A DNA stretch of 64,000 nucleotides, taken from assembly GCF_003627035.1 (NCBI RefSeq), contig NZ_CP032626.1, positions 682,001 to 746,000 of the forward strand. Reading direction: 5' to 3'. The DNA comes from Apilactobacillus bombintestini. GTDB lineage: Bacteria; Bacillota; Bacilli; Lactobacillales; Lactobacillaceae. Position numbers and translations under genes: made by a program. Of this stretch, positions 50,030 to 54,609 are shown in pieces; positions within the stretch are counted from its first letter, which is position 1, and each line of letters begins with the position of its first letter. The notes beneath the pieces were generated by a model. It was not told the origin of the DNA, searched no databases, and saw only the letters and a program-made list of their open reading frames with translations.

Positions 50030-51508
50030 ATGGCATTTGAAGGACTAACTGAGCGTCTTCAAAAAGCAATGCGTAATCTTCGTGGAAAAGGAAAGGTTTC
50101 AGAAGCTGATTTAAGATCAACTATGCGTGAAATCCGTTTAGCATTACTTGAAGCTGACGTTAACTTTACTGTAGTTAGAAACTTTGTAAAACGTGTGCAA
50201 ACCCGTTCAAAAGGTGCAGAAGTTTTAGAAGGTTTAAATCCTGCTCAACAAATTGTCAAAATTGTTGATGAAGAATTAACTAAAACAATGGGTGAAGAAG
50301 CAGTCCCATTGAACAAATCTGAAAAAATTCCAACTGTTATTATGATGGCTGGTTTACAAGGTGCTGGTAAAACTACTACTGCCGGTAAATTGGCATTAAA
50401 ATTAAAGAATGAAAATAATGCTCGTCCATTATTAATTGCAGCTGACGTTTACCGTCCAGCCGCTATTGATCAATTAGTAACTGTTGGTGACCAAATTGAT
50501 GTTCCAGTATTTCAACAAGGTACCGATGTTGACCCGGTTGAAATTGTAAAAAATGGGATGCAACAAGCCAAAGAAAATCATAATGATTACGTCTTAATTG
50601 ATACTGCCGGACGTTTGCAAATTGATGAAAAATTAATGGATGAATTAAAGAATATTAAGAGTTTAGTTCATCCCGATGAAATTCTATTGGTTGTTGATGC
50701 AATGACTGGTCAAAATGCTGTTAATACTGCTGAAGGTTTTAATGATGCTTTAGATATTACTGGTGTTGTATTAACTAAGTTAGATGGTGACACTCGTGGT
50801 GGTGCTGCTTTATCTATCAGAGAAGTAACTAAGAAGCCAATTAAATTTATTGGTCAAGGTGAAAAGATGGATGCCTTAGATGTATTCCATCCAGATAGAA
50901 TGGCATCTCGTATCTTGGGAATGGGAGATATTTTATCTCTTATTGAAAAGACTCAAAAAGACTACGATGAAAAGCAAGCCAAAAAGCTAACTGAAAAGAT
51001 GCAAAATAATACATTTGGATTTGAAGATTTTCTTGATCAATTGAATCAAATTCAAAAAATGGGACCATTGGATGAAATCATGAAGATGATTCCAGGAATG
51101 GCTAATAATCCTGCTTTAAAGAATGTTAATATGGATCCTAAGGATTTAGAACACATTAAAGCAATTATCTATTCTATGACTAATGAAGAAAGAAATAATC
51201 CAGATGTATTGAATCCATCTAGACGTCGTCGTATTTCTCGTGGTAGTGGACGTCCTATTCATGAAGTTAACCGTATGATTAAGCAATTTAATCAAATGAA
51301 AGACATGATGAATAAAATGTCTAACGGAAACATGGCTGGTATGGAACAAATGATGAGTAATATGGGTATGGGTGATTCTATGCCTAACATGCCAGGTATG
51401 GGTGGCGGCCTTGGTGGCAAGCTATCTCAAATGGCCATGAAACGTATGAGTCGTAAGATTAGTAAAAAGATGGGTAAAAATAAACGTAAACGTAAGAGAC
51501 GTAAATAA
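50030..51508 (+). CDS. ffh: Signal recognition particle protein Ffh
   Basis: SRP54 homologue (492 residues) that binds signal peptides and 4.5S/6S RNA. N domain, G domain with GLQGAGKTTTAGKLA, DVYRPAA, DTAGRLQ and TKLDGDTRGG, then the Met-rich M domain (about 300-450; RRRRISRGSGRPIHEVNRMIKQ-type motif binds RNA) and a strongly basic tail KRKRKRRK. Ribosome binding site weak. A terminator follows; the next genes in other Firmicutes are rpsP and khpA, here displaced by the three-gene module. Confidence 0.97.
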   Translation: MAFEGLTERLQKAMRNLRGKGKVSEADLRSTMREIRLALLEADVNFTVVRNFVKRVQTRSKGAEVLEGLNPAQQIVKIVDEELTKTMGEEAVPLNKSEKIPTVIMMAGLQGAGKTTTAGKLALKLKNENNARPLLIAADVYRPAAIDQLVTVGDQIDVPVFQQGTDVDPVEIVKNGMQQAKENHNDYVLIDTAGRLQIDEKLMDELKNIKSLVHPDEILLVVDAMTGQNAVNTAEGFNDALDITGVVLTKLDGDTRGGAALSIREVTKKPIKFIGQGEKMDALDVFHPDRMASRILGMGDILSLIEKTQKDYDEKQAKKLTEKMQNNTFGFEDFLDQLNQIQKMGPLDEIMKMIPGMANNPALKNVNMDPKDLEHIKAIIYSMTNEERNNPDVLNPSRRRRISRGSGRPIHEVNRMIKQFNQMKDMMNKMSNGNMAGMEQMMSNMGMGDSMPNMPGMGGGLGGKLSQMAMKRMSRKISKKMGKNKRKRKRRK

Positions 51509-51515
51509 TTAATTT

Positions 51516-51552
51516 AAGAGACATGATTACCTTGGGTGATTATGTCTTTTTT
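51516..51552 (+). terminator. Intrinsic terminator of ffh, abutting the next ribosome binding site
   Basis: AAGAGACATGATTACC pairs with GGTGATTATGTCTTTT (some G-U) around TTG, ending in six T residues. The T-run is followed at once by AGGAGGG, the ribosome binding site of the AAA+ gene, so that gene either depends on read-through or is attenuated by this hairpin. Confidence 0.85.
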
Positions 51553-51568
51553 AGGAGGGATGAAAATA

Positions 51569-52702
51569 ATGGCACTAGGATATGATGATGCTCTACAAGC
51601 GGTAAAATTAATCGAAAAAAGTGGATCAGTGGCTAACTTAGTTGGAATTGCAGGTATAGGTAAAACTGCATTAGTACAAGATTTAGCTAGACAAGAGAAC
51701 GCAAAGCTTTTTACTACTGTTGTAAGTTTATCTGAAAAAGGTGATTTAGCTATACCAGTTCCTCCATTGACCAGTGATTCTTTTATTCAAACACAAAAAT
51801 ATGGGAAGTTAGCTGACGTACAATTTGGTTATTCACATACATTAATACAAATTATTGAACATGCAGAACGTTATCCAGATGAAAAAATAATTTGGTTTCT
51901 AGATGAATTTAATCGAGGAACTGTGGAAGTACAAAGTGAATTAATGAATCTAGTTTTACAAAGACAAATAAATTCACTAAAACTTCCAGAACAAGTTTCT
52001 ATAATCATAGCCGAAAATCCAGATAGCTCTATGGATGATTTTGCTGATAGTAATTACGCAGTATACGATAGTGATGATGCCATTACTGATAGAACAGTTA
52101 GAATTAATATGAAAGTAGATGTCGATTCCTGGATTAAATGGGCAAACGAAAATGATTGTAGTGCTCAAGTAGTAGATTTCATTAAGAACAATCCTGATTA
52201 TTTATATAAGGGACCAGATGATATAAAACCCACACCTCGTGCATGGGAAAGAGTATCTAAATTTTTAAATAGCATTACTAATTTAGAAGATGTAAATGAT
52301 CAAGTATTGTTAGAAGTTATTTCAGGAAATATAGGGAGAACAATTGCTACTAGTTTTTTAAATGATTTAAGAAAACCTGATAATAAAATTACGATACAAG
52401 ATTTAACTAATGATGATTTATCTGTGGTTCTACAAAAATTACATGATGTAGATGAAGCTACTAAATTAGATGTTATTTCTGAATTTATTGATAATGTAGA
52501 TGATCATGTGAGTGATGAAACTGCAAATCGTATATATCAGTATGTAGAAAGCTTAAGTGAAGATGGTAAATATGCAGCTGCATCACATCTTATAAATAAG
52601 ACCCATATAGCTACTTCGTTATATAGTAAATATGAGTCTTCTGACGAACAAAAGAAGTTATATGATAAATTAGTCGAATTGGCTTTTAAAAACTATAGGT
52701 GA
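51569..52702 (+). CDS. MoxR-like AAA+ ATPase of the AAA/VWA module
   Basis: 377-residue cytoplasmic ATPase. Walker A GIAGIGKT (26-33), Walker B IIWFLDE (107-113) followed by FNRG, sensor 1 in IIIAENP (Asn150), arginine finger candidates in ITDRTVR, sensor 2 in PTPRAWERVS (Arg224). This matches MoxR/dynein-related AAA proteins that partner VWA proteins (RavA-ViaA, CbbQ-CbbO, NorQ-NorD types). The C-terminal third is helical and unrecognised. Start ATG 51569 chosen nine bases after AGGAGGG; ATG 51560 abuts that motif. Followed after seven bases by the VWA gene. Substrate unknown; chaperone-like remodelling is inferred from the families. Confidence 0.85.
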   Translation: MALGYDDALQAVKLIEKSGSVANLVGIAGIGKTALVQDLARQENAKLFTTVVSLSEKGDLAIPVPPLTSDSFIQTQKYGKLADVQFGYSHTLIQIIEHAERYPDEKIIWFLDEFNRGTVEVQSELMNLVLQRQINSLKLPEQVSIIIAENPDSSMDDFADSNYAVYDSDDAITDRTVRINMKVDVDSWIKWANENDCSAQVVDFIKNNPDYLYKGPDDIKPTPRAWERVSKFLNSITNLEDVNDQVLLEVISGNIGRTIATSFLNDLRKPDNKITIQDLTNDDLSVVLQKLHDVDEATKLDVISEFIDNVDDHVSDETANRIYQYVESLSEDGKYAAASHLINKTHIATSLYSKYESSDEQKKLYDKLVELAFKNYR

Positions 52703-52709
52703 TTGATTT

Positions 52710-53951
52710 ATGGATATAAATGCACAACTCAAGGAAATTAATAGTAATGAAAATGGTGCAACTGATACACAAATGGATAATTTAGTGTCAGCTGGAATTT
52801 TATATTTATTAAATCATGATTCATTATATGGAAATATTTTAGTGAATTTAAACCGAAAAATAGATAATAATATATCTAGTGTGCTAGCTTTAAAGTGGTT
52901 CAATAATCAATTGGTATTATTGATGAATCCTTTTAAAATTAGAGATTTTATTGCAACACAACAAGATTTAATAGATATTTTGCAGCATATTTGCATTCAT
53001 ATTATTTGGTTGCATCCATTACGTTATAAGCAACCTAACAACTTAGCAGATATTGCTATGGATATTTCTGTTAATCAATATGTCCCACACGTATATTCGC
53101 AGTCATGGACTTTAGATAAGTTATCGTTTAACTGGAATTTGGAATTACCTAAGAAGAAAGATTCTAAAGATTATCTAAGGCTACTTAGCAAATTTATGCC
53201 TGACAAAGATAAAAATGGTAAGGGTCCCTTAGATAATGATGAGTATAAGTTAGTAGATGATCATAAGTTTCTACGTGATGAAGACGGAAGTGCCATTGAT
53301 AAAAGAGATTATCTTTCTAAATTAATCAATAAGGCTAAGCAAAATACCCATAATGATAATCGAGGTACTATGTCTCACGATGTTGAATTACAGGTTAAAC
53401 GTGATACATTGCATAAAGTAAGTTTGAAACAAATTGTGGGGATGGCGAAAAGATTGAGCAATAAAACTAAAAGTTCATTTGCTAGATTTAATCGACGTCA
53501 ACCATATCGAATGGAATTACCAGGAAAAATATCTGCTCATAAAACAACCATTAACGTATTCTTGGATAGTTCTGGTTCTATAAATAATGAACAATTCAGT
53601 AAAATGACTGCTTGGATTTATGAATTATCTAACAAGAATAATATGGAAATATATTTATATCCTTTTGATGCAGAAGTAAAAGATCAAAAGAAACAGCGAT
53701 TAACAAAAAACAGTGAAATAAATAATCGTGTTGCTAATGGTGGAACTTCATATCAAGCGGTATTTAACTTTATTGCAGAAAATCAAATGAGAAATAATTT
53801 GAATATAATTTTAACTGATGGCAAGGGAGAGACGACTTTAAATAATTTAAGAATTAAAAATGTTCTATGGATACTAATACATTTAGACGATTCTCTATCA
53901 GTTAATAATTCAGTGGGTAAAATAATATATTTGGAAAGCATAAGTAGGTGA
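52710..53951 (+). CDS. DUF2201-type VWA protein with degenerate metallopeptidase motif
   Basis: 413-residue soluble protein. N-terminal part resembles the putative metallopeptidase region of DUF2201 proteins: LQHICIHIIWLHPLR (91-105) aligns with the usual HExxH helix, and DIAMDISVN (114-122) with the following conserved Asp/Asn helix, but the catalytic Glu is Ile94. The C-terminal part is a VWA-like domain: MELPG, then MIDAS residues in DSSGS (286-290), Thr346 in GGTSYQ and Asp370 in LTDGKG. Ribosome binding site TAGGTGATT. Expected partner of the AAA+ ATPase upstream. Probably a non-catalytic, metal-binding adaptor; function not known. Confidence 0.83.
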   Translation: MDINAQLKEINSNENGATDTQMDNLVSAGILYLLNHDSLYGNILVNLNRKIDNNISSVLALKWFNNQLVLLMNPFKIRDFIATQQDLIDILQHICIHIIWLHPLRYKQPNNLADIAMDISVNQYVPHVYSQSWTLDKLSFNWNLELPKKKDSKDYLRLLSKFMPDKDKNGKGPLDNDEYKLVDDHKFLRDEDGSAIDKRDYLSKLINKAKQNTHNDNRGTMSHDVELQVKRDTLHKVSLKQIVGMAKRLSNKTKSSFARFNRRQPYRMELPGKISAHKTTINVFLDSSGSINNEQFSKMTAWIYELSNKNNMEIYLYPFDAEVKDQKKQRLTKNSEINNRVANGGTSYQAVFNFIAENQMRNNLNIILTDGKGETTLNNLRIKNVLWILIHLDDSLSVNNSVGKIIYLESISR

Positions 53952-53955
53952 TTAA

Positions 53956-54240
53956 ATGATCAAACCAGAAATACTAAAAATGGCAATTAACCAAGATAAT
54001 CGAATTAATAGAGCGATTGCTATTTTAAAGGATAATTGGTTTAGTATTTATGATGATTCTCCATTTATGGATAAAATGTCTGCCAATGATGTTCAATTAG
54101 CTAAAAATTTATCAAAAAATAATATAATAAATAGTAAAATTGACTTTAATGATTATGCAAGAGTTCATAAATTTGTTATAAATAATGAAAAATATATGGA
54201 TGGAACTGCTAAAGATGAGTTATTAGGGGCATTTTATTAA
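53956..54240 (+). CDS. Hypothetical 94-residue protein of the AAA/VWA module
   Basis: Not recognised. Predicted helical, with basic N-terminus (MIKPEILKMAINQDNRINRA) and DNWFSIYDDSPF and MDKMSANDVQLAKN stretches; no signal peptide, no membrane helix, no cysteine. It starts four bases after the VWA stop behind TAGGTGAT and ends before the rpsP promoter, so it is clearly part of the same transcription unit. Good coding length and ribosome binding site argue for a real gene. Confidence 0.72.
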   Translation: MIKPEILKMAINQDNRINRAIAILKDNWFSIYDDSPFMDKMSANDVQLAKNLSKNNIINSKIDFNDYARVHKFVINNEKYMDGTAKDELLGAFY

Positions 54241-54252
54241 AAAAATTAATGG

Positions 54253-54274
54253 TGTAAAGAAAAAACACTTTACA
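54253..54274. promoter_or_regulatory. Inverted repeat overlapping the rpsP -35 box
   Basis: TGTAAAG and CTTTACA are exact inverted repeats separated by eight bases. The right half contains the TTTACA -35 hexamer. No T-run follows, so it is not a normal terminator; it could be an operator or a weak 3' hairpin for the module. Confidence 0.45.
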
Positions 54275-54333: not shown

Positions 54334-54609
54334 ATGTCTGTTAAAATTCGTTTGAAGAGAATGGGTTCAAAGAAACGTCCTTTCTACCGTGTGGTAGTTG
54401 CTGATTCACGTAGCCCTCGTGATGGTCGTTTTATCCAAACTGTTGGTACTTACAACCCATTAACTCAACCAAGCACTGTTAAACTTGAAGAAGACGATAT
54501 CTTCGAATGGTTAAACAAGGGTGCTCAACCATCAGATACTGTTCGTAACTTATTATCTGATGCTGGTGTTATGAAGAAATATCACGAAGCTAAATACTCA
54601 AAGAAATAA
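54334..54609 (+). CDS. rpsP: 30S ribosomal protein S16
   Basis: 91-residue small-subunit assembly protein: [33 protein letters not shown] is diagnostic. ATG behind AGGAGGTG. Leads rpsP-khpA, with rimM-trmD and rplS behind, the usual Firmicute order. Confidence 0.97.

Follow-up and report, generated by a model that had tools for sequence, protein, structure and literature searches.

The window analysed in this study, a stretch of 64,000 nucleotides from the 1.29 Mb, single-contig genome of Apilactobacillus bombintestini, carries three co-directional genes between ffh and rpsP, which encode an AAA+ ATPase, a VWA protein, and a 94-residue protein referred to here as P94 (Table 1). The coordinates of these three open reading frames, as well as the spacings of 7 bases between the ATPase and VWA genes and of 4 bases between the VWA and P94 genes, agree with the preliminary description of the locus. 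The mechanical reading frame of the ATPase gene opens at a GTG in position 51536; the ATG at 51569, chosen as the start in that description, has a Shine-Dalgarno sequence (AGGAGGG) at the right distance, which supports the choice. The hairpin that follows ffh ends at this Shine-Dalgarno sequence, and similar hairpins precede most of the other ffh-linked copies of the three genes (hereafter, the trio); judging from its predicted RNA fold, we regard it as a terminator or attenuator. Since there is no room for a promoter between the hairpin and the ATPase gene, the trio probably relies for its expression on transcription that reads through from ffh or on a promoter located within ffh. The rpsP gene has its own promoter downstream of the trio. 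A palindrome-like element, TGTAAAGAAAAAAC(A)CTTTACA (54253-54274 of the window), overlaps the -35 of that promoter; it occurs once in the genome of the window, recurs before rpsP in distant Lactobacillaceae (L211-L213, L215, L217, and L218), and is possibly an operator or a conserved feature of the rpsP promoter.

Table 1. Genes and RNA feature at the trio locus, in window coordinates, with the evidence for each.
Feature	Position	Strand	Evidence or remark
ffh	50030-51508		Upstream neighbour of the trio
Strong hairpin followed by a T-run, directly after ffh	51516..51552	+	RNA fold -18.5 kcal/mol, z -4.1
AAA+ ATPase of the MoxR/midasin-like kind, 377 aa	51569..52702	+	Open reading frame; AAA_5, E 2.5e-4; PHROG 1297, 1.2e-47; motifs
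DUF2201 VWA protein, 413 aa	52710..53951	+	PF09967; PF13203 in relatives; alignments; model; PBS1 fold match
P94, 94-residue third protein	53956..54240	+	Constant third gene; profile searches; model pLDDT 88.2
rpsP	54334-54609		Downstream neighbour of the trio

The Walker A, Walker B (WFLDEFNR), sensor 1 (AEN), arginine finger (DRT), and sensor 2 (TPRAW) motifs are all intact in the ATPase of the window, and they are kept, allowing for conservative variants, across the 80 loci described below. This protein had been called MoxR-like, which holds only in the broad sense of the clade; its Pfam scores fall just under the cut-off of AAA_5 (21.5 bits against 22, although a relative reaches 28.3) and far under that of AAA_3, the MoxR model of Pfam (PF07726; 14.9 bits against 27). 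The only solved structures that match the ATPase profile by sequence are those of midasin, with a match that covers about 60 residues around the P-loop. RavA-type C-terminal domains were not among the Pfam matches of the ATPase up to an E-value of 1.

The second protein is of the DUF2201 type, as proposed, and scores 42 bits against PF09967, whose cut-off is 26.4. It ends with a VWA domain, to which no effector domain is fused and whose MIDAS is intact (D286, S288, S290, T346, and D370, all of them invariant in our alignments). The N-terminal domain of the window protein gives no match to PF13203 (DUF2201_N, a putative metallopeptidase) at an E-value of 1; because its relatives score 28-54 bits, above the cut-off of 23.2, we consider this domain homologous to PF13203. 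At the position of the HExxHxxxxHP motif, the window protein reads H93-I-C-I-H97...H102 (HICIH), not HExxH. Both H93 and H97 are invariant in all the aligned sequences, and H102 is present in nearly all of them. The catalytic glutamate at position 94 is kept in 38 of the 80 loci, namely in all Paucilactobacillus and Leuconostoc, in 23 of the 30 Limosilactobacillus, and in one unclassified genome, and is missing from the other 42, where it is replaced by V in Lactiplantibacillus, Secundilactobacillus, Philodulcilactobacillus, and Furfurilactobacillus, by T in Levilactobacillus, by Q in Convivina and Weissella, and by L in the Apilactobacillus other than the window, which has I. This recurrent loss of the glutamate from a site that keeps its histidines argues that cutting would not be the common function of the domain. 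The structural model of the VWA protein (pLDDT 87.6) matches a protein of phage PBS1 over its full length (2.2e-22); its fold matches in the PDB are mostly VWA domains, including a NorQD chain and midasin-MIDAS, and no match for the N-terminal domain was seen among those listed.

P94 had been described as unrecognised, and we likewise found no family above cut-off for it in Pfam, NCBIfam, PHROGs, or PADLOC. Its model contains five helices (pLDDT 88.2, pTM 0.80) and has no significant fold match in the PDB by Foldseek, and its best conserved positions are L2, A20, L24, W28, D45, A49, L52, and L89. Scattered sub-threshold Pfam matches, such as CDC37_M in 6 of 69 members (best value 0.014), were treated as chance; the idea that P94 is itself a chance reading frame was rejected on the basis of its constancy as third gene and its dN/dS of about 0.12.

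The conservation of the trio as a unit was assessed in two sets of loci that overlap in part. In the first, for which a region of about 15 kb surrounding the VWA gene was fetched from each genome, the order AAA-VWA-P94 is found in 40 of 40 Lactobacillaceae loci, with the VWA gene split into two open reading frames at one of them (L088). In the second, a scan of named GTDB genomes, the trio occurs in the same order at 80 of 80 loci from 11 named genera (Apilactobacillus, Philodulcilactobacillus, Paucilactobacillus, Limosilactobacillus, Lactiplantibacillus, Levilactobacillus, Secundilactobacillus, Furfurilactobacillus, Leuconostoc, Convivina, and Weissella), and at nearly all of these the genes overlap or are separated by no more than some tens of bases. 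The VWA gene is present in 134 of the 398 Lactobacillaceae genomes sampled and missing from the remaining 264. Four of the VWA-positive genomes seemed to lack P94 in a single-sequence search; a profile search recovers it in three, and in the fourth, whose genome is 68% complete, the search meets only a fragment at the start of a contig. Weak single-sequence matches to P94 in VWA-negative genomes were rejected, as they vanish with the profile. The ATPase was not found in 23 VWA-negative genomes, in a search that had no positive control, though this protein can be aligned with its copies in other genera at 40-57% identity. In the genomes checked, then, the members of the trio are present or absent together. 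Within the A. kunkeei group, the dN/dS values of the ATPase, the VWA protein, and P94 are 0.09, 0.14, and 0.12, and that of ffh is 0.015; the proteins of the trio are thus under purifying selection, yet they evolve fast for their neighbourhood. These results bear out the earlier proposal of a conserved AAA+/VWA/small-protein unit, both in the co-occurrence of its genes across related genomes and in the conservation of the 94-residue frame.

Two additions to the trio were seen in particular lineages. At L097:8043-8706, and also at L156 and L180 (Weissella), the VWA gene is followed by two tandem P94 paralogues. A fourth gene of 142-169 aa, usually with a 4-base overlap with P94, follows the trio in Leuconostoc, Convivina, and one close unclassified genome (L119:7477-7983, L124, L125, L138, L139, L130, L168, and others), and is limited to them; it belongs to no family, and its weak resemblance in Leuconostoc to ABM/HmoB-like monooxygenases (Pfam 0.056; hhalign E 0.0017, probability 15%) was rejected as an assignment and kept as a lead.

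Outside the family, a class sample of 250 genomes, few of them Lactobacillaceae, contains distant relatives of the VWA protein and no convincing match to P94 beyond the genome of the window itself. The two nearest of these relatives are each paired with an ATPase, and no P94 was found in their genomes with a profile. Searches of plasmid and phage collections gave no P94 either. In the genomes searched, P94 appears to be specific to Lactobacillaceae. A scan of viral contigs with the single VWA protein gave no match, and the same scan with the VWA alignment gave nine distant relatives. The ATPase tree groups its rows mostly by genus, although its outgroup branches are long and its root is unsure. 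We read these data as mostly vertical inheritance of the trio, with losses and a few relocations; a recent mobile insertion is disfavoured by the genus-wise tree and by the lack of P94 matches on plasmids and phages.

Across the Lactobacillaceae, the trio occupies about six unrelated chromosomal places. The ffh-rpsP site is used in Apilactobacillus, Philodulcilactobacillus, Secundilactobacillus, Levilactobacillus, and two further genera. In Limosilactobacillus and Paucilactobacillus a methylpurine-DNA glycosylase gene usually precedes the trio, and an M13 peptidase gene is close by. The copies of Leuconostoc and Convivina are close to a gene for a penicillin-binding protein, and the neighbours are different again in each of Lactiplantibacillus, Furfurilactobacillus, and one further genus, probably Weissella. 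More than one insert has entered the ffh-rpsP junction, since in Levilactobacillus a cation P-type ATPase gene also lies there, between ffh and the trio (L098:2896-5637, L099, and L100). Two species of the same genus as the window have a clean empty site, where ffh is joined to rpsP by a short spacer with the rpsP promoter. The existence of several sites and of empty sites means that position gives no indication of function, and the location between ffh and rpsP is incidental.

It is important to consider that part of this system is already known. In jumbo phages, a MoxR ATPase has been described together with a vWA co-chaperone that carries a metallopeptidase at its N terminus, and a role in virion assembly was proposed for them (Iyer et al. 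2021, PMC7824862), and the N4 gp24/gp25 and AR9 gp028/gp029 genes are adjacent pairs of this kind. The trio shares with them the adjacent AAA+ gene and the metallopeptidase-VWA fusion, homologous in sequence (PHROG 1297, 1.2e-47, for the ATPase; PHROG 1314, 1.4e-36, for the VWA protein) and in fold. It differs from them in being chromosomal and mostly vertical, in its constant P94, which has no match in the phage collection, and in the loss of the catalytic glutamate in the window and in many genera; the phage VWA proteins are only about 25% identical to that of the trio. The pair, found in jumbo phages and phage N4, is therefore not new, and without the third gene it had already been described in jumbo phages (PMC7824862). 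The preliminary interpretation is supported in part: the conserved three-part unit stands, with no name or function for the trio in the databases searched and no paper on it found in the literature searched, and a link to the SRP or the ribosome from position is unsupported. What is new is the constant third gene, the vertical chromosomal inheritance, and the degenerate peptidase site; P94, its strict linkage, its restriction to Lactobacillaceae in the genomes searched, and the peptidase-site pattern are absent from the family libraries and literature searched. As a separate observation, AR9 gp029 (L224:5824-7248), N4 gp25 (L225:6188-7330), and phrog_1314 carry the label 'HNH endonuclease' in PHROGs and in the phage records of RefSeq, even though pfam09967 and pfam13203 are cited in a note within the AR9 record itself; the label looks wrong for these DUF2201 metallopeptidase-VWA proteins.

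Among cellular systems, NorQ-NorD would be the best mechanistic template for the trio. It forms a hexameric ring with an extension of the VWA protein in its pore, it needs the MIDAS for its client, and the ATPase remodels a linker, which allows metal insertion (PMC13036017, PMC9976466). Like NorQ-NorD and CbbQ-CbbO, the trio has a single AAA+ ring protein and a VWA adaptor with a MIDAS, and a NorQD chain is among the fold matches of the VWA model; unlike them, it has no nor or cbb client genes in the neighbourhoods read, a different N-terminal domain in its adaptor, and an extra small subunit, and it gives no curated-family match to either system. RavA-ViaA of E. coli, also a proposed chaperone, is encoded by a MoxR/VWA operon of two genes that has no obligate client next to it, but the trio ATPase lacks the RavA-type C-terminal domains according to Pfam, a third gene is present, and the architecture of the adaptor is different.

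Taken together, we consider it probable that the trio is a single operon, transmitted mostly vertically in a large part of the Lactobacillaceae, and that it encodes a MoxR/VWA chaperone that uses ATP to remodel proteins, and by analogy the best reading would likely be a chaperone similar to NorQ-NorD or RavA-ViaA with a lineage-specific third subunit. The evidence for it is the constant order and coupling of the genes, their joint presence and absence, the intact ATPase and MIDAS, the loss of the glutamate with the histidines kept, the purifying selection, the genus-wise ATPase tree, the adjacent phage pairs, and the precedent of a ring with a VWA adaptor in NorQ-NorD. Under this proposal, the AAA+ protein, with its complete set of motifs, would form a hexameric ring that hydrolyses ATP; the VWA protein would act as the adaptor, the MIDAS metal gripping an acidic patch of the client; the former metallopeptidase domain would assist in holding the client, which in most lineages it would not cut; and P94, to judge by its linkage, would serve as a dedicated third subunit, most likely as an adaptor towards the client or by regulating the ATPase-VWA complex. 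The client would be encoded elsewhere on the chromosome and would be neither ffh nor rpsP. The lack of a target gene adjoining the pair, already pointed out for the window, extends to all the loci read, and it counts against the chaperone, as do the lack of any known relative that would point to a role for P94 and the complete HExxH of some lineages, in which proteolysis may matter. A more specific version, in which the ex-metalloprotease domain, having lost the glutamate in several lineages and kept its metal-binding histidines, would hold or hand over a metal or the client instead of cutting and P94 would be a new small helical fold that serves as adaptor in a lineage-specific three-subunit chaperone, is one that we consider rather doubtful.

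The same HExxH is an argument for a regulated metalloprotease, in which the ATPase would deliver or unfold substrates for the metallopeptidase domain and P94 would be an inhibitor, an activator, or a substrate; the relatives match PF13203, and the phage homologues have been proposed to process virion proteins (PMC7824862). The loss of the glutamate in the window and in 42 of the 80 loci, spanning at least eight genera while ATPase and MIDAS stay intact, makes this unlikely. MoxR-vWA pairs are also central to the ternary conflict systems that have been proposed (VMAP and others; PMC7159879), and a defence function of this type would agree with three components of which two are MoxR and vWA, with the fast evolution of the trio relative to its neighbours, and with its patchy distribution. 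Nevertheless, there is no PADLOC match, the third component does not vary and is an unrelated helical protein of 94 residues with no VMAP, iSTAND, FtsH, or beta-propeller match (among the models searched, which included none for VMAP as such), and there are no effector domains, nor is one fused to the VWA protein. Swapping, diversification, and enrichment in multicellular bacteria were not seen here, and the purifying selection, the genus-wise tree, the housekeeping surroundings in most genera, and the absence of P94 from plasmid and phage collections also speak against such a system, which we consider very unlikely. Least credible of all is a factor for ribosome assembly or the SRP, a role suggested in the preliminary description from the position alone; the ffh-rpsP location recurs in the genera listed above, and midasin, a ribosome-assembly AAA+ protein, provides the structural matches of the ATPase. 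The midasin match is confined to about 60 residues around the P-loop, however, rpsP has a separate promoter, the trio lies elsewhere in Limosilactobacillus, Paucilactobacillus, Leuconostoc, Convivina, Lactiplantibacillus, Furfurilactobacillus, and one more genus, and the VWA gene is missing from 264 of 398 genomes and from the two species of the same genus in which ffh-rpsP is intact.

The trio occurs in food and gut bacteria that are in heavy use and open to genetic work (L. plantarum, L. reuteri, L. brevis, Leuconostoc, and Weissella), and since the peptidase glutamate is present in some natural variants and absent from others, it can be tested whether cutting matters. The trio provides a compact model for MoxR/VWA machines that gain extra subunits, and it bears on the role of the homologous pair in jumbo phages and in N4. 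A Weissella 'VWA-like domain-containing protein' (A0A0D1M163) has been detected, changing over time, in a fermented-vegetable metaproteome (PMC11988878); it may be the VWA protein of the trio, which would show its expression.
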